This document shows, in pieces, positions 26,494-38,945 of a DNA stretch of 64,000 nt. A program made the translations under genes and the position numbers. Location: assembly GCF_015265455.1 (NCBI RefSeq), contig NZ_CP054492.1, positions 992,001 through 1,056,000 on the forward strand, given 5' to 3'. Origin of the DNA: Candidatus Sulfurimonas baltica. Its GTDB lineage: Bacteria > Campylobacterota > Campylobacteria > Campylobacterales > Sulfurimonadaceae. Position 1 is the first letter of the stretch. The number at the start of each line of letters is the position of its first letter. Under the pieces are notes generated by a model. That model did no database searches. It was not told the DNA's origin and saw only the letters and a program-made list of their open reading frames with translations.

Positions 26494-27231
26494 TTATTTC
26501 ATTGATGTTTTAATCATCATTCTTCTAAGATAAGCAATCTTTACTTGTAGTGGTAAACTCTTAGGGCAGACATCTTCACATCCTAAAAGTGACATACATC
26601 CAAATACACCATCTTCATTTCCGATAAGGTTATAATACTCTTCATCGCTTCTCTTGTCTCTTGGATCTAGGTGGTATCTTGCTACTTTATTAAGACCAAC
26701 AGCCCCAATAAATTCTTGTCTCATCTGAATGGTACCACACCCTGCTACGCAGCACCCGCACTCTATACAACGTTCAAGTTCATAAATTTCATCAGCAAGT
26801 TCTGGCTCCATTCTCTCTTCGAGTTTATCAACATTTAATTCTTTTTCTCTATTGTGTATCCAAGTCTCTAGGTGCTGATTTAAGTAGCGCATCCATTGCC
26901 CGGTGTAAACAGAGAGATCACCTATAAGTTTAAATAAAGGGAGTGGTGCCAAAGATATATTTACACCAAGTTTTGACGTTAGTGTTTTACATGCTAAAGT
27001 AGGAGTTCCGTTTACAAGCATAGAACAACTTCCACAGATTCCAGCACGACATACAAAATCAAATTTTAGTGAATTGTCGTGATGCTCTCTAATCTCATTA
27101 AGCGCTATAAAGAGCGTCATACCATGTGCTTCTTCAATTTCAAAAGTTTGCATATGAGGAAAATCTTCTGGATCATTTGGATCAAATCTTAAAATACTTA
27201 TTTTTAAAATTCTATTTTTTTCTTCACTCAT
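26494..27231 (-). CDS. frdB: Fumarate reductase iron-sulfur subunit
   Basis: The 245-residue subunit carries all three clusters. The 2Fe-2S site is [15 protein letters not shown]...LAC (~60-82), the 4Fe-4S site is [11 protein letters not shown] (~153-163), and the 3Fe-4S site is [16 protein letters not shown] (~212-227). It passes electrons from menaquinol-linked FrdC to FrdA. Its start overlaps the frdA stop by 4 bases. The order frdC-frdA-frdB is that of Wolinella and relatives. Confidence 0.96.
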
Positions 27232-29216
27232 ACATTTTCTCCTAATCTTTCATTAACTCCCTGATATTTTTTTGGAAGTTTATCAATAAACGGCATGAGA
27301 GCATTTTGAATATCAAAACGAGATGCTCCCTGTGCCTCAAGTTTTTCTGTTATATCGTCAACAATTTTTTGTCTCTCTTGCGAATCCGGATGAGGGTTTG
27401 TCAAATCTTTTCCATAACCGCGAAAACCGGGAGGTATCTCCATTTTTGATATATCGATATCTTCATAGCTTACCGTTGGCAGTACTTGTTTTTCATCTTC
27501 CCAGCTTGTTATGGTTCTTTTTAGCCAGTTTTCATCATCACGTTCAAGATAGTCTTCTCTGGAGTGTGCCCCGCGGCTCTCTTTTCTTAGCAGTGCTCCA
27601 TAAGCTACGCAAAGTGCTACTTTAAGCATTTTTTGAGTTCTGTACGCATTTACTAAAGCTGGATTTGCTGCTTTACTTTTGGAGCGAAAAACTTCTATGT
27701 TCTCACTTCTTTTTAGAAGTTCTGATAGTTCATCTACAGCATTTTGAAGGTCATCTCCATTTCTGAATATTCCAACTTTTTCCATCATAATCTCTTCCAT
27801 TCTACGACGAAGAATATACGCATCCTCGCCATTCTCTTTTTTAAGAAGAGCCTCTAGTTTATCATCCTCAGTTTTTAATGCTTCTTCAACAACGGCAGTA
27901 TTTATTTGTATGTCACTATCTTTGCTATCTAGATAATCAGAAATATATTCACCAACTAGCATACCAGCTACAACTGTTTCACTAACAGAGTTTCCGCCAA
28001 GTCTATTAAAGCCGTGCATATCCCAGCAAGCTGCCTCGCCACATGAGTATAAACCTTTTAGTGTTTGTGATTCACCTGTGAATTTTGTACGAATTCCACC
28101 CATTGAGTAATGCTGCGTAGGGCGAACGGGTATCCAGTCCACTGCAGGATCTATACCTAGAAAATTTTCACAAATCTCTTTTACTTCTCTAAGATTTTTT
28201 TCAATGTGAGCACGTCCAAGTATAGTTATATCTAACCATAGATGATCGCCATAGCGAGACTTAACGCCTTTTCCTTTTCTGATATGCTCAGTCATTCTAC
28301 GACTGACAACATCACGAGATGCAAGCTCTTTTTTTTCTGGTTCATAATCTGGCATAAATCTATAGCCATCTTTATCAAGAAGCAGTCCGCCATCACCGCG
28401 ACAACCCTCTGTAGTTAAAATTCCTACAGGAACAATAGCTGTTGGATGAAACTGTATGGCTTCCATATTCCCAAGTGTCGCAACACCTGTTTCTAATGCT
28501 ATAGCTTGCCCTATGCCTTGACAAATAACAGCGTTAGTAGAAACGCTATAAATTCTACCATATCCGCCAGTAGCTATAGTAGTTGCTTTTGCAACATAAG
28601 CAACTAACTCACCAGTCATTAAATTTCTTGCGACTGCACCATAACAACGACCATTTTCATGTATAAGTGATATAGCTTCAAGCCTTTCATGAATTTCAAT
28701 TTTATCTTCATGTGCCTTGTTGTCCATAGCATAAAGCATACTATGTCCAGTCCCGTCAGATGTGTAGCAGGTTCTCCACTTTTTAGTACCGCCAAAATCT
28801 CTGGCTGTGATAAGACCATGTGCCTCATCTCTTTCTGTGATAGTGACTTTTTTTGCATTGATTACAGATTGTCTGTCACCTCTTTGAACTCTAGTCCAAG
28901 GAACTCCCCATTGTGCTAACTCTCTAATTGCTTTTGGAGCACAGTGTGTAAACATTCTGGCAACTTCTTGATCGGCTCCCCAGTCACTACCTTTGATAGT
29001 GTCATTAAAGTGTACATCTTCGTTGTCGCCTTCGCCCATTTTAGAGTTGGCTAAAGATGCTTGCATCCCACCTTGTGCTGCTGCAGAGTGTGAACGCTTT
29101 GGCGGTACTAGTGTTAGTACAATTACATCATGTCCGCGTCCTTTAACTCCTGTTGCAACTCTTAATCCTGCAAGTCCACCACCAATGATTAGCGAATCAG
29201 TGTAAATTATTTTCAT
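27228..29216 (-). CDS. frdA: Fumarate reductase flavoprotein subunit
   Basis: The 662-residue subunit has the FAD-binding N-terminus [17 protein letters not shown], the covalent-FAD histidine region [14 protein letters not shown], the substrate site QFHPTAIVP, and [13 protein letters not shown] with the catalytic arginine region SRDVVSRRM. No Tat or Sec signal is present, so the catalytic face is cytoplasmic. It reduces fumarate to succinate, also needed for the reductive TCA cycle typical of Sulfurimonas. It overlaps frdC by 4 bases. Confidence 0.96.
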
Positions 29217-29953
29217 TGTTGTGCCCCTTGTTGAACAGTCTTTGTAACTTGATGATATCTCTCTCCGGCCTTATCTTTGTGCTCAATACCTATCTTGATA
29301 TAAGCTGCTAAAGTTAAAAATCCTAGAGTAAGAAAAAATATTGTAATTGCATATTTTAGTTTACGCAGATTGTTTCTGCTTTTTTTAGTGTCACTGCCTT
29401 CAAACCATCCCCATTTTAGTGCAAGACGATATATACCTACAGAACCATGTATTTCTACTGCCAATAACAGTAGTATATACAGCGGCCACATCCACTCAGT
29501 TACAACACGATCAGCTGATGCATATGGACCAATTTCTGAAGGGTTTGTCATAATGATATAGAGGTGAACAGAGCCTAAAAAGAACATTGCAAAACCAGTG
29601 AAAACTTGCCAAAACCAAAGAGTAGTGTCAGTATGATTTAGCGATTTAATATGATTTTTCATAATCGCATATTTCTTATAATTTGATGGAAACTTTCGTA
29701 ACGCAACTAGAGCATGTACTATAAAAATTATAAAAATAGCTCCTGCTGCAATTGTCACTATAATTGGATATGATTCTCCAAAAAAGTATTCACCTTCAAA
29801 AAACTTTGTTACGCTGTACATAACATCTTTTCCAAGTAATATTGTAGATACAAAAAACATGTGCGCCCACATAAAGAGTGCGAGTATAAGACCACTTGCA
29901 CTTTGGATAAAGTCTAGTCTAGCCGGTATTTTATCTATTTTTATCTGCTTCAT
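29213..29953 (-). CDS. frdC: Fumarate reductase diheme cytochrome b subunit
   Basis: The 246-residue protein has five membrane helices. Four histidines at 31, 80, 130 and 169 have spacings of 49, 50 and 39, identical to the haem ligands H44, H93, H143 and H182 of Wolinella FrdC. Glu167 lies two residues before His169, matching the E-pathway glutamate E180 of that enzyme. So it is a true diheme menaquinol-oxidising subunit with the transmembrane proton pathway. It is first in the operon. Confidence 0.96.
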
Positions 29954-30898: not shown

Positions 30899-31780
30899 TT
30901 ATATAAAGTTTACTTCTGCAACGTGATGCTTAAGGCCAAGTTCCTCGGAGCTACATCCAAGTGCAAGACCAACCATTTGTTGCATATGTAAAACTGGAAG
31001 CTCTACTTCACGACCTATAGCTTTTGAAGCATGATCTGCCTGAGTATCCAACTTTAGATGACAAAGTGGACATGGAGTTACCATCCAGTCAGCATTTTGA
31101 TCAACTGCGCCAGCTATTGCGTTGCCTGTTAAGACCGCAGCAGTATGAGGAGCTTGAAGCTCTACATGGAAACCGCAACATTTATTTTTTTGTTCATAAT
31201 CAACATTCTTACCACCACAAGCGATTATTAAATCATCAAGCGAAGTGGGGTTATAAGGATTCTCTTTTGTTTTATGAGTCTCATTTTGAAGCTCTGAAGG
31301 GCGAATATTATGACAGCCATAAAATGGTGCAATGTTAAATTTGCTAAGTGGAGTAACAACCATCTCTTTTAGTTTATCAAGGCCAAAATCATCAATTATT
31401 GCATATAAAAAGTGAGTGATAGTGGAAGTACCTTTGTACTCTAATCCAACTTCATTTAGCTTCTCATTAACCTTAGCCTTTAGCTTTGAGTTGTGATCTA
31501 ATCGGTGCTTAGTCATGGCAGTATTAAGTTGACATGTATTACATATAGTTACCATTGTTAAGCCGTGCTTTTCAGCATAAGCAATATTCCTAGCATTTAA
31601 AACTAAAGATAAAAAATCGTCAAAGTCTTGAAGATGAGAAGCTCCACAGCATGAAGCTTCTGTTAATTCAATTAACTCAATATTAAGTTTTTTTGCAACA
31701 GCATAAGTTGACATTAATTGCTCTGGAGTACTCTGTTTTGCTGTACAACCAGTAAAAAGTGCGTATTTTAATTTTTTCAT
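30899..31780 (-). CDS. sdhE: SdhE/MfrE-type CCG-domain subunit of succinate dehydrogenase/fumarate reductase
   Basis: The 293-residue protein has two complete cysteine-rich CCG domains like HdrB. The first uses GCTAKQ, EASCCGASH and TICNTCQLN. The second uses YGCHNIRPS, NKCCGFHVE and TPCPLCHLKLD. The pattern C...CC...C-x-x-C in each half is intact. In SdhABE/MfrABE complexes this subunit replaces the membrane anchor and reacts with the quinone pool. It follows sdhB after 10 bases. Confidence 0.92.
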   Translation of the reverse strand: MKKLKYALFTGCTAKQSTPEQLMSTYAVAKKLNIELIELTEASCCGASHLQDFDDFLSLVLNARNIAYAEKHGLTMVTICNTCQLNTAMTKHRLDHNSKLKAKVNEKLNEVGLEYKGTSTITHFLYAIIDDFGLDKLKEMVVTPLSKFNIAPFYGCHNIRPSELQNETHKTKENPYNPTSLDDLIIACGGKNVDYEQKNKCCGFHVELQAPHTAAVLTGNAIAGAVDQNADWMVTPCPLCHLKLDTQADHASKAIGREVELPVLHMQQMVGLALGCSSEELGLKHHVAEVNFI

Positions 31781-31790
31781 CTATTTACTC

Positions 31791-32771
31791 CTAGAACTTT
31801 ACTGTTGATGATGATTTTATAAGTTGTTGAATCTCATCTAAATTATCAGATTTTGGTATTGCCCATGGCATAACAATTTTGCCTTTTCTAAACATCTTAA
31901 GTGCAACAGGGATGTGCTTTATAATAGCCGGTCCTTCAGAATAAAGAACTAATCCACCCTCATCAAGTACGCCATGTTTAGCGATTGAGTGTTTAAACCC
32001 TACTGCATGACGAGTTGCTACATTACTAGTTGCAACTCCCTCTTTAAACAGCATTTGGTGTAGTTTAGTAATCTTGTCTATCGGATTCACCTCTTTTGGA
32101 CAAACCTCTGCACACTCAAAACATTTAACACAATCCCAAAGACCTTGTTTCTCTTCATGTAGTTCTTCAAGTCTTGTAATATGGGCATCATCACGAACAT
32201 CTGCCTCAAAACGGTAAGCTTTTGCAAATGCAGCAGGACCAAAAAAGTCTTCGTTTACTTCAACAACAGGACAAGCATAGTGGCAAGCGCCACACTGAAT
32301 ACATAAATCTGCGTCATTTAACTCATCAGCTTGTTCTGGAGTAACAGCACACTCCATTTCTGGATGTTCATCAATATGAGATATTAGATATGGATGAATA
32401 GCATCGTGCTTTTTCCAAAAATCACCCTTATCGATTATTAGATCTTTAACAGCTCTTTTTATACTTAGTGGCTCAAGTGTTAAATCAGTTCCAAACCAAT
32501 CTATCATAGTAGTCATACTCTCTTTACAAGCAAGAGTTGAACGACCATTTACTTTAATGGCACATGCACCACAAATACCGTGACGACAGCTGCGACGATA
32601 TGAAAAACTACCATCGAAATCCCATTTAATTCTATTTAATATATCTAAAACAACTTCTTCTGATGTAACTTCCATAGTGTAATTTTCATAATATGGAAGG
32701 TAATCATCACCAGCATTAAAACGAAATACTCTGAAGTTTACTTTTTGTGTAGTTATTGAATGTGTACTCAT
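31791..32771 (-). CDS. sdhB: Iron-sulfur subunit of SdhABE-type succinate dehydrogenase/fumarate reductase
   Basis: The 326-residue subunit has a 2Fe-2S site SCRHGICGACAIKVNG...LAC (~59-82) and two ferredoxin-type motifs, CIQCGACHYACP (~151-162) and CVKCFECAEVCPKEVNP (~215-231). The extra C-terminal ~80 residues, compared with classical SdhB, fit the Mfr/SdhABE type. The 358-residue divergent protein at 34674 copies this sequence plan without cysteines. Confidence 0.93.
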   Translation of the reverse strand: MSTHSITTQKVNFRVFRFNAGDDYLPYYENYTMEVTSEEVVLDILNRIKWDFDGSFSYRRSCRHGICGACAIKVNGRSTLACKESMTTMIDWFGTDLTLEPLSIKRAVKDLIIDKGDFWKKHDAIHPYLISHIDEHPEMECAVTPEQADELNDADLCIQCGACHYACPVVEVNEDFFGPAAFAKAYRFEADVRDDAHITRLEELHEEKQGLWDCVKCFECAEVCPKEVNPIDKITKLHQMLFKEGVATSNVATRHAVGFKHSIAKHGVLDEGGLVLYSEGPAIIKHIPVALKMFRKGKIVMPWAIPKSDNLDEIQQLIKSSSTVKF

Positions 32772-32780
32772 AAGTTCTCC

Positions 32781-34493
32781 TTAGTATGTTCTTGCTTTAA
32801 GTTCATGTTTGCCAAGTACAACATCCATGTAGTCAAGTGTAATATCGCCATTTTCAGACATGTAAGCCATAGTGTGCTTTAAAAACTCTTCATCATTTCT
32901 AGTGTCAAAGTCTTCTCTGAAGTGAGCACCACGACTCTCATTTCTAGCTATTGCACTCTCAACAATAAAAGCAGAATAGTCAATCATATGACCAAACTCT
33001 ATTGCTTCTTGCAGTTCTGTATTAAATATTTTTGATTTATCTTTTATTCTTATATCTTTAAATCTTTGGCGAAGTTCTTTAACTTTTGCTACTGCTATTT
33101 CTAAAGTATTTTTTGTTCTGAATGCACCGGCATTAGCTGTCATACACTGCTGTAACTCTTCTCTTAAATTTGTAATTGTTTCTTTACCATTATTGTTTAA
33201 GATAAAATCAATCTCAGCAAGTGCTGTTTTTGCATCTTCTTGTGTTGCAACACGCAGTTCAATATTTTCAACTTCTGCAGCCATTGTTTTACCAACATAG
33301 CGACCAAAAAGAAGAGCTTCAAGTACAGAGTTTGCACCTAAGCGATTGGCACCATGAACTGAAACACAAGCACATTCACCAGCTGCATAAAAACCTTCAA
33401 TAAATTCAGTATTATTTTTACGAACATTTCCAGCTATGTTTACCGGAATTCCGCCCATAGAGTAGTGTGCAGTTGCTGATATAAGAATAGGCTCTTTAAT
33501 CATATCAAGACCTAAGAAAGTGATTGCCAAGTCACGTAGCTCAGGTAGCCTCTCCATAATTAAATCTTTACCAAGGTGAGTTACGTCTATGTAAACTGCA
33601 TCTTTTCTTGGTCCTACACCGCGACCTTCTCTGATTTCATTGAGAATTGCACGACTTACAACATCACGAGATGCAAGCTCCATAGCGTTAGGAGCATATT
33701 TTTCCATAAATCTTTCACCAAGAGAGTTAAATAACTTACCACCTTCACCGCGAGCAGCTTCAGAAATTAAAACACCATTTCCTGAAAGTCCTGATGGATG
33801 AAACTGTACAAACTCCATATCTTCTAGAGGGAGGCCATGGCGAGCAACTATAGAGAGTCCATCGCCTGTATTTGCATGTGCATTAGAGTTTATTTTATAT
33901 GAACGTGCATATCCGCCAGTAGCAAACATCACAGATTTAGCATTAAAAATTGCCATTTGCATATCACGAATATTAAAGGCTACAACACCTGAAACTTTAC
34001 CATCTTTATATATGACATCTGCTGCATACCATTCGTCCCAAAACTTTACACCTGAACGATGAGCTTGCTCATAAATAGTTTGGAGCAGTGTTAATCCAGT
34101 TCTGTCTTTTGCATAGCAGGCACGAGGTGAAGATTGTCCACCAAAAGGTCTTTGAGCAATTTTTCCATCAGCTGTACGGCTAAATGCTGCACCCATTCTC
34201 TCAACCCAGCGAATAGTACCGGGAGCTTTTTCACACATAAAAGCAACAGCATCTTGATCAGCTAAATAATCAGAGCCCTTAACTGTGTCAAATTCGTGAA
34301 GCTCTACACTGTCCTCATCACTAAATGCTGCATTTACGCCGCCTTGAGCTGCCCCGGAGTGGCTTCTGAGAGGGTGTAGTTTTGTTATGACAGCAACTTT
34401 TTTCCCTGCATTTTGTAGTTCTCTTGCTGCTGCGCAGCCAGCAAGACCAGCTCCAACAATAACTGCATCGTAAGTATAAATAGGAATACTCAT
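32781..34493 (-). CDS. sdhA: Flavoprotein subunit of SdhABE-type succinate dehydrogenase/fumarate reductase
   Basis: The 570-residue subunit has FAD motif AVIVGAGLAGCAAARE (~10-25), covalent-FAD histidine region RSHSGAAQGGVNAAF, substrate region QFHPSGL and [10 protein letters not shown]. The protein starts directly at the FAD motif and has no twin-arginine signal, unlike periplasmic MfrA of Wolinella and Campylobacter. It should therefore be cytoplasmic and is more likely a succinate dehydrogenase, or a cytoplasmic fumarate reductase, than a true Mfr. The operon order is sdhA-sdhB-sdhE. Confidence 0.93.
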   Translation of the reverse strand: MSIPIYTYDAVIVGAGLAGCAAARELQNAGKKVAVITKLHPLRSHSGAAQGGVNAAFSDEDSVELHEFDTVKGSDYLADQDAVAFMCEKAPGTIRWVERMGAAFSRTADGKIAQRPFGGQSSPRACYAKDRTGLTLLQTIYEQAHRSGVKFWDEWYAADVIYKDGKVSGVVAFNIRDMQMAIFNAKSVMFATGGYARSYKINSNAHANTGDGLSIVARHGLPLEDMEFVQFHPSGLSGNGVLISEAARGEGGKLFNSLGERFMEKYAPNAMELASRDVVSRAILNEIREGRGVGPRKDAVYIDVTHLGKDLIMERLPELRDLAITFLGLDMIKEPILISATAHYSMGGIPVNIAGNVRKNNTEFIEGFYAAGECACVSVHGANRLGANSVLEALLFGRYVGKTMAAEVENIELRVATQEDAKTALAEIDFILNNNGKETITNLREELQQCMTANAGAFRTKNTLEIAVAKVKELRQRFKDIRIKDKSKIFNTELQEAIEFGHMIDYSAFIVESAIARNESRGAHFREDFDTRNDEEFLKHTMAYMSENGDITLDYMDVVLGKHELKARTY

Positions 34494-34673
34494 CTAGCTT
34501 TCCTTTGTTAATTAAAATATTTTGGATTGTACAATTATTACCCTTTGTAACGCATAAAAAGATCTTATATACTCCATTTTGTTACCTTTTGAGACATTAT
34601 ATTTTATATATTGTTGTTATTATTTTGTGATATACTCCTCTCTTATTTTTAATATAATGCTAGAAGGAAAATT
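34494..34673. promoter_or_regulatory. Divergent promoter region of sdhABE and the cysteine-less SdhB-SdhE-like gene
   Basis: These 180 AT-rich bases are shared by two divergent units. A plausible -10 element TATACT (34631-34636) serves the rightward gene, whose ribosome site is GAAGGA just before ATG 34674. The arrangement would allow co-regulation. I could not define the leftward promoter. Confidence 0.4.
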
Positions 34674-35750
34674 ATGATTAAAGAACTACATGTAGAACTC
34701 TTTAGGTTTGATTCTAAGGTTGATTATCTCCCTTACTATAAAAAATACACCATAGAGTATAAGCAAAGAGACACTATCTTGAGTATTCTCAATAAAATAA
34801 ACAATATTGAAAAATTTAGTTTTGAGCCTACAGTTGATTTTAATCTAAAAATAAATAATCTTTATATGAATGCAAATGAATTTATTGTAAATATAGTTGA
34901 TGCAACTTCAAATGAGTTTATCATCGAACCTATTAGTATATATAGAGCTACAAGAGACTTAATAATAGATAAGAAGGATTTTCTAGAAAAAATTGTTTCA
35001 TTTAAAGAGTATGTAACCCCAATGGACATGGATGAGTATGCGAAAAATTATGAATTGGATTATTATGCTTCAAATACATATGATATAAATAGAGATTATA
35101 TTGGAGACCATTCGCTGCTTATAGCCAGTGATATTATTGAACAAAATCCTGAGTTGAAACAAGATATTTTAAGTAAAATTTCTAATGCAGACAATGGTAT
35201 CTGGTATCATACATCACTTGAAAATAGAGTTTTTAATTATGACATAAGTAAAGAGCATAGAATAAAAACACTTTTATCAATGTTGCCAAAAGTTACTTAT
35301 TCAGGAATTAGTGCATCTGTAAATACTAAAACACATAGTGCAGATATTTCTCAATATTTCAATGGTTTTAATATTGCATCTTTTGATGGTTTAAATAAGA
35401 ACTCTGCAAGCGCTATGATAAAAGAATCAAAAGCTAATTATGTTGATATAAGCCTAAAATATGAAGATCTGGCGCCATATTCAACATTGGTTAGTAAAGA
35501 CTTTTCACTTAAGATAGCCGGTAATATTTTAATTCAAGCCAAAGACGAAAATGCTGATTTTATTATCGTAAGGGGCAAAAGCGATGTTATGTTGTTTGAT
35601 GGTGAGCAAAAAAGAATAGAAAAAGCAGTAGGAAGAGAGATTAACCTTCCCGTTATATCTCAGGAGCAGTTTGTAAAGTTGCTGCAAGGAGAAAAAGACA
35701 GCTCACTGCTGGGTTTTGATAAGCATAAAGTTAAAGTCTCATTTTTATAA
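34674..35750 (+). CDS. Cysteine-less protein resembling SdhB fused to the C-terminal half of SdhE
   Basis: The 358 residues contain no cysteine. Residues 1-110 follow the SdhB ferredoxin domain encoded next door: YLPYYKKYT (18-26) against YLPYYENYT, and IEPISIYRATRDLIID (84-99) against LEPLSIKRAVKDLIID. Residues ~113-206 keep the outline of the SdhB helical domain, with VTP, IGD and GIW landmarks. Residues ~225-358 follow the second half of SdhE: FNIASFDG against FNIAPFYG, and AVGREINLPV (319-328) against AIGREVELPV. Every cluster ligand is lost, so it cannot carry these iron-sulfur clusters. It may be an assembly, regulatory or structural subunit. It may belong to a catalogued uncharacterised family; I could not check. 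Confidence 0.85.
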   Translation: MIKELHVELFRFDSKVDYLPYYKKYTIEYKQRDTILSILNKINNIEKFSFEPTVDFNLKINNLYMNANEFIVNIVDATSNEFIIEPISIYRATRDLIIDKKDFLEKIVSFKEYVTPMDMDEYAKNYELDYYASNTYDINRDYIGDHSLLIASDIIEQNPELKQDILSKISNADNGIWYHTSLENRVFNYDISKEHRIKTLLSMLPKVTYSGISASVNTKTHSADISQYFNGFNIASFDGLNKNSASAMIKESKANYVDISLKYEDLAPYSTLVSKDFSLKIAGNILIQAKDENADFIIVRGKSDVMLFDGEQKRIEKAVGREINLPVISQEQFVKLLQGEKDSSLLGFDKHKVKVSFL

Positions 35751-35764
35751 AAAAGTTTTTGCTT

Positions 35765-36949
35765 TTAGAGTTCACTTTTAGCCAAATCTTTTATTTGACA
35801 TATGCTGCAAGTTCCTTGTTCTTTAGCAAATTCTAAAACTTTTTTTGCTTCTATTATGGAGTTTTCAAGAGAGACATTGTTTGGTTTAACAACGAACCCG
35901 CCACTCACTGTTATCTTCACTGTTCCTGTAGTTGGTGATTGCAGTCTTAATTCAGAAATACTTTGACGAATAGCCTCAATATCTTTAAATGACTGCTCCT
36001 TTTTCTCACGTGAAAGTATTATAGTAAATTGGTTGTAATCAGTTCTTGCTATAACATCCAATGCCTGTTCATGCAGAGATATTGTAAAAGCAACTTTTTT
36101 GAGTATAGTTTGCACAAATTCCTGTGGATAGACTCTGTTTGTTTTTGAAAAATTATTAATCTCAATAATAGTAATGGTTGTAAAATTTCCATCCTTTACA
36201 CCTTTTTTCTCAGAGTATGCGTTCATCATTCCTTTATGATTATTAATACCTGTAACTGGATCTATCATTGACGGATTATCGGCTGTAACTGGTTTTCTAA
36301 TCATTCTTAAAGCGATAGCATCAACTTCTTCTGAAAATATTACATAATCTTTTTTATTCACGTTGTATAAAAACAGTAAATCTTCGTATATGGCATTAAA
36401 CTTTTTTCTATAAAAAATCAATGCTAACAAGATTATAACAAATGATACGTAAGTGATATTTTTATATATATAAAATTTTTCTTTTGAATATATTATGCTT
36501 TTGAATATTATAGAGTCAATTTTATTGTAAAGCAGGTTGAAGTTTTCATCTAGTTCATCTTTTTTAGTGTTGGTTGTGTAATAGTGACGAGCTTTTATAT
36601 TAAATGAAGTTGTTAGAGTGCTTAGTTCATTTAAATCTGCAAGATACTCATCTTTATTTGAGAGTACATATTGTTCTGTAAAATTATATCTATACAAGTT
36701 ATGTAGTTTCTCTATTTCATAGTGCAGTTGCGTGCTTTTACCATTAAACTGTATTAATGCTAATTCTATGTCATCTTTAGAAAAAGTGGTTAAAGTTGAT
36801 ATGATATGTTTTTGATTGTTTAGATTGTCTATTTTTGTGAAAGTATTACTATGATCTATAGCGACTAATACACCACCAGCGGCAAGTAAGGTGATTAAAA
36901 ATAGAAATAGTATTAAGTTATTGAAAATGTTTTTTATAGATTGTTTCAT
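35765..36949 (-). CDS. Membrane protein with degenerate GGDEF domain
   Basis: The 394-residue protein has membrane helices at ~10-30 and ~165-182 enclosing a helical periplasmic sensor region. The C-terminal domain (~220-385) has the GGDEF layout, starting DPVTGINNHKGM, but the signature is replaced by RTDYNQF where RxGGDEF is expected. It is therefore probably not a cyclase. It could bind c-di-GMP or GTP, or act as a scaffold. It is convergent with the cysteine-less SdhB-SdhE-like gene, 14 bases apart. Confidence 0.8.
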   Translation of the reverse strand: MKQSIKNIFNNLILFLFLITLLAAGGVLVAIDHSNTFTKIDNLNNQKHIISTLTTFSKDDIELALIQFNGKSTQLHYEIEKLHNLYRYNFTEQYVLSNKDEYLADLNELSTLTTSFNIKARHYYTTNTKKDELDENFNLLYNKIDSIIFKSIIYSKEKFYIYKNITYVSFVIILLALIFYRKKFNAIYEDLLFLYNVNKKDYVIFSEEVDAIALRMIRKPVTADNPSMIDPVTGINNHKGMMNAYSEKKGVKDGNFTTITIIEINNFSKTNRVYPQEFVQTILKKVAFTISLHEQALDVIARTDYNQFTIILSREKKEQSFKDIEAIRQSISELRLQSPTTGTVKITVSGGFVVKPNNVSLENSIIEAKKVLEFAKEQGTCSICQIKDLAKSEL

Positions 36950-37035: not shown

Positions 37036-37854
37036 TTGAATCTAGAAAATTATTTTATATCACAATTTAAGAGTAAATATATTGGTGATGATGGGGCTTT
37101 GATAAAACAGAATGTTTATTCAAAAGATGCTTTTTTTGAAAATGTGCACTTCAAGCGTGAGTGGATGAGTTATTATCAAATAGCTTATAAGGCAATGATA
37201 ATAAATATTTCAGATGCAGTTGCCATGAATGCAAAACCAAAATATGCACTATTGAGTGTTTCTATGCCTCGCAGCATTACTAAAACACAGATGAGAGAGC
37301 TATCATCAGGCTTTAAAGATGCTGCGTCCAAATATGCAATTGAAATAATAGGTGGAGATACTATAAGTAATATTAAGCTCGATATTACTATAACGATTGT
37401 TTCACAAACGAATAGACCACTTTTGAGAAGTAATATTAAAGAGGGATATTTAATCGCTTTTACTGGAGAGCTTGGTAGAAGTAAAAAAGATTTAAGAAAG
37501 CTTATGAATTTAGGTAAAATTAATAAGAAATCTAAGTTTGTAGATATAAAACTAAGAGATAAATTTTTATCAAATTCAGAGCGATTTTTAAGCTCAGGAA
37601 TGGATATCTCAGATGGTCTGTTTAGTGACTTAGATAAGCTTGCATCAGTAAATAGAGTAGGGTTTAAATTTAATAAAAACATATCAAAATCTATTGGATG
37701 CAGCGGAGAAGAGTATGAAATGTTGGTTGCATTTGACAAAAGAGATAAAAAAGCTGTTTTAAGACGGGCAGAGCAGAGCAGAACGCCACTAAATATTTTT
37801 GCTAAAAGTGTAAGAAAGAGATATGTAAATTGCTGTAAAGCGAATCATTTTTAA
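37036..37854 (+). CDS. thiL: Thiamine-monophosphate kinase
   Basis: The 272-residue kinase phosphorylates thiamine monophosphate to the active diphosphate. It has the ThiL marks IGDDGALI (~16-23), the AIR-synthase-like INISDAVAMNAKPKYALLSV (~56-75), GGDTISN and SGMDISDGLFSDL (~190-202). The start is TTG at 37036, which matches the family N-terminus; TAAGAAG lies ahead. It is shorter than E. coli ThiL (~325) but normal for this phylum. It leads a run with truD and psd. Confidence 0.88.
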   Translation: MNLENYFISQFKSKYIGDDGALIKQNVYSKDAFFENVHFKREWMSYYQIAYKAMIINISDAVAMNAKPKYALLSVSMPRSITKTQMRELSSGFKDAASKYAIEIIGGDTISNIKLDITITIVSQTNRPLLRSNIKEGYLIAFTGELGRSKKDLRKLMNLGKINKKSKFVDIKLRDKFLSNSERFLSSGMDISDGLFSDLDKLASVNRVGFKFNKNISKSIGCSGEEYEMLVAFDKRDKKAVLRRAEQSRTPLNIFAKSVRKRYVNCCKANHF

Positions 37855-37871
37855 ATAAGGATTATAAAAGT

Positions 37872-38945
37872 ATGGATAGATTTTATTCGTTAAACCACTC
37901 TAGTATTGAGTTTCATTTTAAGCAAACACCTAGAGATTTTGTTGTTGAAGAATTACCACTTTATGAGTTTTCAGGCGAAGGCGAGCATCTTGTATTATTT
38001 GTAAGAAAGAAAAACCTCTCTACACTTGAACTTGTAAGTATGATTGCTAAATATTTAGGAATTAAAAATAAAGAGATAGGTTACGCAGGTCTTAAAGACA
38101 AGCATGCTATGACTAAACAATATATATCCTTGCATAAAAAATATGAAGAAGCAATGGATAATTTTTCACATGAAAATATAAAGATTTTATCAAAAGCATA
38201 TCATAATAATAAGATTAGAATAGGGCACTTAAAAGGTAATAGATTTTATATCATACTTAAAAAAGTAAATCCAACTTCTGCTCAAAAAATAGACGAAGCT
38301 CTTAAAAATATTTCTAAATTTGGTATGCCAAACTTTTTTGGTTATCAACGTTTTGGAAATGACGGTGATAATCATATAGATGGTGAAAAAATAGCTAAAG
38401 GTGAAAAAAAAGAGCGTAATCCGAAAATAAAAAAATTACTTATAAATGCTTATCAGAGCCATCTATTTAACCTATGGCTAAGTAGAAGATTAGAGATAAA
38501 TACTCTTATCCAAAATTTTGAAGCCAAAGAGCTAGAATCACTTTTGAATATGACAAACGATGAATTAACAAAAATGAAGTCTCAAAAACATCCATTTAAG
38601 CTCATTAGAGGTGACATAATGGAACATTATCCACATGGCAGGCTTTTTGATTTTGATGGGCAAGAGGAAGATTCTAACAGGTTTAATGATAAAACAATAT
38701 CCCCCACAGGTCTCTTATGCGGTGGTAAGGTTAAGATGTCATCAGACTCTGCCGGAATAATAGAAAAAGATTACAACGATGAAATTAATGTTGACGGTGC
38801 AAGAAGATATGCTTGGGTTTTTCCTGAAAAAATAGAGGGCAGGTTTAAGAAAGAGGAAGCTCAGTATGAGTTAAACTTTTCTCTTCCAAAAGGGTCATAT
38901 GCAACGGTTCTTATAGAAGAGTTAGCAAAGCGAAAGCTTATTTAA
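37872..38945 (+). CDS. truD: tRNA pseudouridine(13) synthase
   Basis: The 357-residue enzyme has the catalytic aspartate in GYAGLKDKHAMTKQY (~75-89), the N-terminal FKQTPRDFVVEE and NFFGYQRFGNDG (~155-166), all diagnostic for TruD. It modifies U13 of tRNA-Glu. It lies 17 bases after thiL and is followed by psd after 27 bases, a probable operon of unrelated housekeeping genes. Confidence 0.94.
   Translation: MDRFYSLNHSSIEFHFKQTPRDFVVEELPLYEFSGEGEHLVLFVRKKNLSTLELVSMIAKYLGIKNKEIGYAGLKDKHAMTKQYISLHKKYEEAMDNFSHENIKILSKAYHNNKIRIGHLKGNRFYIILKKVNPTSAQKIDEALKNISKFGMPNFFGYQRFGNDGDNHIDGEKIAKGEKKERNPKIKKLLINAYQSHLFNLWLSRRLEINTLIQNFEAKELESLLNMTNDELTKMKSQKHPFKLIRGDIMEHYPHGRLFDFDGQEEDSNRFNDKTISPTGLLCGGKVKMSSDSAGIIEKDYNDEINVDGARRYAWVFPEKIEGRFKKEEAQYELNFSLPKGSYATVLIEELAKRKLI

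Follow-up and report, generated by a model that had tools for sequence, protein, structure and literature searches.

A cluster-less SdhB-SdhE-like fusion protein encoded beside sdhABE in Candidatus Sulfurimonas baltica and its possible docking on the complex II flavoprotein

Why would a bacterium keep, next to the genes for a working SdhB and SdhE, a relative of both proteins in which the sites for every iron-sulfur cluster have been erased? The question is raised by a gene, here called X, within a stretch of 64,000 nucleotides from Candidatus Sulfurimonas baltica (hereafter the window). X is divergent from sdhA, the head of the sdhA-sdhB-sdhE operon, from which it is separated by 180 bp (Table 1). 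The preliminary description of this DNA, made from the letters alone, was accurate about the coordinates of the reading frame, its 358 codons without a single cysteine, its AAGGAA ribosome-binding site and its divergence from sdhA. It took the protein to be a fusion of SdhB-like and SdhE-like parts with a selected, non-redox role, be it template for assembly, cap, regulator or decoy subunit.

Table 1. Features of X and its neighbours, in window positions
Feature	Position	Strand	Basis and remarks
Gene X, cluster-less SdhB-SdhE-like fusion protein, DUF5644/HdrB-like_C family	34674..35750	+	358 aa
Ribosome-binding site AAGGAA of X	34664..34669	+	Sequence; AAGG kept in orthologues
-10-like element TGATATACT of X, between the divergent X and sdhA	34628..34636	+	Putative, from sequence; kept in four Sulfurimonas genomes
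Fer2_3-type domain (SdhB N-terminal, beta-grasp) without 2Fe-2S cluster, residues 7-104	34692..34985	+	Pfam PF13085, 31.9 bits, cut-off 27, E 1.4e-7
Site of the CRHGIC deletion, six residues of the 2Fe-2S loop (SdhB C62-C67)	34830..34835	+	Gap common to aligned members
DUF5644, once the two-cluster ferredoxin domain of SdhB, residues 108-204	34995..35285	+	Pfam PF18712, 30.4 bits, cut-off 25, E 4.1e-7
HdrB-like C-terminal domain, SdhE second half without CCG ligands, residues 275-352	35496..35729	+	Pfam PF22196, 35.2 bits, cut-off 33.4, E 1.3e-8; aligned with SdhE
sdhA, flavoprotein, divergent neighbour of X	32781..34493	-	NCBIfam TIGR01812, 761.7 bits
sdhB, all cluster cysteines	31791..32771	-	Pfam, NCBIfam, ligand columns
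sdhE (CCG, HdrB-like), all cluster cysteines	30899..31780	-	Pfam, NCBIfam, ligand columns
thiL and truD, old neighbours of X and sdhABE across the phylum	37036..38945	+	Pfam AIRS and TruD; gene orders

Domains and family of X

The proposed plan, about 200 residues of SdhB followed by the second half of SdhE, is borne out by Pfam, in which Fer2_3, DUF5644 and HdrB-like_C all score over their cut-offs, and the three sequence matches quoted for it, including YLPYYKKYT/YLPYYENYT and AVGREINLPV/AIGREVELPV, are real. In profile searches against SdhB/FrdB the similarity is thus beyond chance. The NCBIfam SdhB/FrdB models also detect X (E ~1e-8), with scores far under their curated cut-offs (PRK12385, 35 bits against 333; dhsB, 34.5 against 88), and PRK06259 (TfrB) matches weakly, at 26 bits for a cut-off of 385. 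The best phmmer match in the PDB is 3KWL (E 1.6e-17; residues 3-204 and a further match at the C terminus), followed by E. coli FrdB (1kf6_B, E 1.2e-3). Annotated frdB genes were recovered by tblastn with X, and a plasmid collection gave, among the matches listed, ordinary frdB-type genes only. The Pfam CCG domain has no match in X, from which the SdhE ligands and the first half of SdhE are absent, and neither the Pfam model PF03937 (Sdh5/SdhE flavinylation factor) nor PADLOC, run for a link to defence, matched it.

X is a member of a known, uncharacterised family defined by PF18712 (DUF5644) and PF22196 (HdrB-like_C), already on record as domains of unknown function and represented by the solved structure 3KWL. 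HP0468 is the form of X in H. pylori (PMC9570263). Lineages carry X either as two adjacent genes, for a pseudo-SdhB of ~212-261 aa and a pseudo-SdhE of ~234-283 aa, or as a fusion of 323-379 aa, or of 495-496 aa in the H. pylori type (sequence at locus L094); the first half of SdhE, missing from the window protein, is kept in the two-gene forms. The C. jejuni form, judged by gene order and C. jejuni numbering, is probably Cj1459, of which our literature search found no mention; HP0468 was named in two papers and DUF5644 in one, within a table. Among the papers readable without subscription, we found none identifying the DUF5644/HdrB-like_C family as a cluster-less twin of SdhB-SdhE. The PF22196 model itself appears to have been built on the cluster-less family, since pseudo-SdhE of the Helicobacter type scores 86-124 bits against it and the true SdhE of the window 22.6 bits, under the cut-off.

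Two blocks of SdhB, FRF..DYLPYY..YT and EPIS..RA..DLIID..DF (in the family, EPxS..RA.KDLIID..DF), are kept in the N-terminal domain. Both lie outside the cluster loops and have 43-46% family identity to SdhB; elsewhere in the stretch derived from SdhB identity is 12-21%, and in that derived from SdhE 18-24%. Structure prediction, suggested earlier as a check, gave a mixed result. AF2 returned a mean pLDDT of 49.5 for full-length X with four orthologues and 60.9 for its first 209 residues with SdhB rows added; in the homology-aided model residues 1-80 have mean pLDDT values mostly of 58-89, and the beta-grasp N-domain is fairly confident. For both low-confidence models Foldseek ranked 3KWL first and FrdB/SdhB next, but the superpositions are poor (TM 0.2-0.4), so the case for homology rests on sequence.

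Ligand loss, origin and selection

Which cluster ligands have been lost, and how often? Ligand columns were counted over 36 aligned X members in SdhB/SdhE numbering. All lack the 2Fe-2S loop segment CRHGIC. Of the four 2Fe-2S cysteines C62 and C67 are deleted with it; in the window protein, the C70 and C82 columns are replaced or gapped, and those from C157 to C224, which comprise the eight cysteines of two further clusters, hold other residues; the true sdhB and sdhE of the window encode every cluster cysteine. No member keeps a full ligand set, isolated cysteines occurring in a few members only, and just M1, F12, D17, D95 and G175 are invariant in the alignment of 23 members from which the profile described below was built. 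The usual replacements are Y, F or L at C160, S at C167, H at C214, L at C217 and F, L or Y at C224. One could imagine that the former cluster sites of X bind some other metal or cofactor, with redox activity or metal sensing retained, given His at C214 in 19/36 members, Ser at C167 in 27/36 and Asp at SdhE C240 in 16/36. However, these residues, which are scattered or confined to particular clades, add up to no invariant ligand set, and we consider such binding very improbable.

The preliminary description had presented the protein as cysteine-free. It does lack cysteine, and all cluster ligands are gone, but zero cysteine is unremarkable by itself: 14 of the 55 window reading frames of at least 150 aa have none. 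At a background of 1.1%, the probability of finding none in 358 residues is ~0.018. X orthologues carry 0-10 cysteines outside the ligand sites, with a family total of 0.9%. Since the family content is this low and cysteine-free reading frames are common in the window, we attribute the zero count to chance and rejected it as a signal; the family trait is the loss of ligand cysteines, not the absence of cysteine.

With a profile built from 23 members, X (148-260 bits) is well set apart from true SdhB (at most 129 bits); 91 of 150 sampled Campylobacterota genomes have X by this measure, compared with 72 of 150 for PF18712 by itself. Among Sulfurimonas, 17 of 120 genomes have X. In a maximum-likelihood tree all X sequences, on long branches, form one clade of 37 (support 100/99) beside the SdhB of SdhABE and away from FrdB. 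X arose by duplication of an sdhB-sdhE pair in the Campylobacterota ancestor. Since there is one X clade, the ligand loss looks like a single old event that preceded the split of the phylum's families: the 2Fe-2S loop and the ligands of all other clusters disappeared from the copy once, early, and bulky residues fill many of the ligand positions. Purifying selection has maintained the copy ever since, whether as a fusion or as two genes side by side.

Measured against three Sulfurimonas orthologues, dN/dS is 0.07-0.11 for X, 0.06-0.09 for sdhB and 0.03-0.05 for sdhE. It is scarcely credible that X is a decaying duplicate without function. Although it diverges faster than SdhB and has been lost many times within Sulfurimonas, this reading is contradicted by reading frames that are open throughout, by the low dN/dS and by retention across the phylum. 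The selected, non-redox role proposed for X is well supported by phylum-wide monophyly, purifying selection like that on sdhB and uniform ligand loss with bulky replacements.

Gene neighbourhood and occurrence relative to complex II

Is X a partner of the operon beside it? In 19 of 22 loci X and sdhABE are neighbours; X may be on either side of the operon, and its orientation varies. It adjoins the operon in 15 of 18 Sulfurimonas loci. In the group of the window it is divergent from sdhA; in two other groups it lies downstream of sdhE, co-directional with it or reversed. The exceptions are L034 and the genomes G185 and G250, in which X and sdhABE are on separate contigs. (The sdhA of G185 holds a run of N, L114:7615-8436, masked or unfinished.) Outside Sulfurimonas, X and sdhABE are together in all four of the genomes examined that have both: X is first in an X-sdhA-sdhB-sdhE run in G007 and G117, stands just upstream of sdhA in G134 and takes part in an X-truD-..-thiL-sdhABE order in G053. 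As genomes without X still have sdhABE beside thiL (L083, L112) and Campylobacter- and Arcobacter-type genomes without sdhABE have X beside thiL-truD, the order truD-thiL-X-sdhABE looks ancestral and adjacency is modest evidence. Somewhat stronger evidence is that X has changed sides of sdhABE within Sulfurimonas with linkage kept.

Other genes share these neighbourhoods. A complete frdB-frdA-frdC operon (quinol:fumarate reductase; window 26494-29953, minus strand) lies one gene, xth, from sdhABE, so the window genome has two complex II enzymes side by side, as do G180 and G195. On the far side of X a GGDEF-domain protein (window 35765-36949, minus strand; Pfam 53 bits), with RTDYNQF in place of a recognisable GGDEF motif, is conserved between sdhA and thiL in most examined Sulfurimonas loci. 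In Helicobacter- and Campylobacter-type genomes the neighbours of X are unrelated, comprising the rsmD/flgI region, pepF and also superoxide reductase. A protein of 127-131 aa with no Pfam match is encoded ahead of rsmD in the Campylobacter type, in overlap with the end of X or of pseudo-SdhE (L086:10128-10511, L085:8340-8735), and is probably co-transcribed with X. In the Helicobacter type, a protein of 157-162 aa with no credible Pfam match lies between pepF and X (L094:10235-10723, L101:8891-9364), and a TerB-domain protein is found downstream (L095:10920-11807). In two Arcobacter-like genomes the genes for pseudo-SdhB and pseudo-SdhE are closely followed downstream by one for superoxide reductase (PF01880), and G053 has one near the end of sdhABE (L099:11165-11608, L100:10611-10997, L110:14481-14864), hinting at an oxidative-stress setting.

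Occurrence points the other way from linkage. X is present in 5 of the 38 genomes with cytoplasmic SdhABE and absent from 33, present in 64 of 87 with FrdCAB only and in 21 of 24 with MfrABE and FrdCAB, all counts that are confounded by phylogeny. It is thus found in 85 of the 111 genomes having only FrdCAB or MfrABE and missing in 26; neither these enzymes nor SdhABE therefore need X. Nor was X seen beside frdCAB in the Frd-only genomes inspected. Every sampled genome with X has SdhA, FrdA or MfrA, one draft (G148) excepted, but since the same is true of nearly all genomes in the phylum, this co-occurrence is weak evidence. We rejected G148, with X and no frdA, as a counter-example; the draft also lacks frdB and, next to it, tpiA, probably through an assembly gap. 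A link between X and frdCAB inside Sulfurimonas was rejected too, with frdA in 8 of 17 X genomes and 44 of 120 overall. The earlier suggestion that X is a partner of the sdhABE operon, for which conservation and synteny across Campylobacterota were to be a check, holds in part: X is widespread and often beside sdhABE, but gene order is partly inherited and occurrence is opposite, with X absent from most SdhABE genomes.

These observations give rise to a serious rival reading, which we regard as quite possible, namely that X acts independently of complex II. An SdhB'-SdhE' heterodimer or fusion would then be a self-contained structural scaffold or a regulator for another partner, and adjacency to sdhABE a remnant of tandem duplication. 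Such independence would fit with X being commonest where SdhABE is absent, with both halves being kept in genomes of the Helicobacter and Campylobacter types that have no SdhE at all, with the unrelated neighbours there and with the age of the truD-thiL-X-sdhABE block. It fits less well with X having switched sides of sdhABE in Sulfurimonas yet stayed adjacent or, more weakly, with the flavoprotein gene found in all X genomes but the draft.

A possible placeholder, and known systems compared

If X does not carry electrons, what might it do? Our preferred but tentative reading is that it mimics the SdhB-SdhE module without redox activity and, during maturation or storage, docks on the complex II flavoprotein. 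Folded and without redox function, X would imitate the module and dock on free flavoprotein (SdhA here, FrdA or MfrA in other genera), at the face normally occupied by SdhB/FrdB. It would keep the flavoprotein safe and non-transferring through flavin attachment, assembly or storage and depart once the real SdhB-SdhE or FrdB arrives, a role that would be helpful, not obligatory. The face of the flavoprotein that FrdB/SDHB will later cover is bound, in E. coli and human complex II, by the assembly factors SdhE/SDHAF2 and SDHAF4 (PMC5773532, PMC10784507), and loss of FrdB lowers FrdA flavinylation (PMC5773532). By analogy, the cluster-free, B/E-derived X would be a natural candidate for this face. 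PF03937 (SdhE/Sdh5) matched nothing in the 150 Campylobacterota genomes; the E. coli and Caulobacter controls matched.

We count for docking the single origin beside the SdhB of SdhABE, not FrdB, the loss of all ligand sets with the two blocks kept and dN/dS like that of sdhB, together with the X-sdhA-sdhB-sdhE run in two genomes, the 19/22 linkage and the lack of PF03937. Against docking we count the genomes without X (33/38 and 26/111), the partly inherited adjacency, the position away from frdCAB and the SdhE-like half, which is kept where the genome has no SdhE and is needless for a simple FrdB mimic. It is also conceivable that X is a decoy subunit, in competition for the flavoprotein with SdhB-SdhE or FrdB, and so shuts down electron transfer, for instance when cells meet oxygen. 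Retention of SdhB-specific blocks with all wiring lost, a conserved putative promoter region of its own, divergent from sdhA, and superoxide reductase just downstream of the Arcobacter-like pair and near sdhABE in one X genome would all suit a decoy; absence from most SdhABE genomes would not, and we consider this role unlikely.

Campylobacterota mature the covalent flavin of FrdA/SdhA without the flavinylation factor SdhE, and X may bear on how they do so. Its retention across the Helicobacter/Campylobacter/Sulfurimonas phylum despite erased wiring points to a non-electrical job, for which handling of the flavin subunit is our first, provisional, choice. In its widest form the docking proposal is that the whole SdhB-SdhE wiring module, duplicated in the Campylobacterota ancestor, became a cluster-free placeholder on the flavoprotein, a self-derived assembly or off-switch factor for SdhA, FrdA and perhaps MfrA; we find this possible but doubtful. 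The structure of HP0468 was solved in 2010, and the placeholder reading, if true, would give this H. pylori protein a function. That DUF5644 and HdrB-like_C are the cluster-less remains of SdhB and SdhE makes a cheap and concrete test possible in H. pylori, C. jejuni or Sulfurimonas, and X is a clean case of a redox module that has lost all its cofactors with strong selection kept.

Among known proteins, HP0468 is most like X: X exceeds both Pfam cut-offs of this family, and HP0468 gives the best phmmer and Foldseek matches and falls in the same clade. HP0468 differs in its 496 aa and full-length SdhE-like half, of which the window protein has the second half only, and 3KWL is annotated as an H. 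pylori "uncharacterized protein." SdhB/FrdB share with X the domain order and sequence of ~200 N-terminal residues, with the SdhB of SdhABE as the nearest outgroup; unlike them, X has the 2Fe-2S loop deleted and the ligand sets of all three clusters lost; it cannot carry electrons by SdhB-type clusters. To the SdhE/MfrE/HdrB (CCG) anchor subunit X corresponds over its last 130 residues, which align with the second half of SdhE, but X has no CCG ligands, lacks the first half here and is fused to an SdhB part.

TfrB, the SdhB-HdrB fusion of methanogen thiol:fumarate reductase, has the same order of an SdhB-like and then an HdrB-like part. TfrB is a redox subunit with cluster cysteines; X has none of these and scores far under the PRK06259 cut-off. 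Unrelated in sequence to SdhE/SDHAF2 and SDHAF4 as far as compared (no Pfam Sdh5 match), much larger and derived from B and E subunits, X would resemble these assembly factors in a possible mode only, that of covering the side of the flavoprotein where SdhB binds (PMC5773532, PMC10784507).
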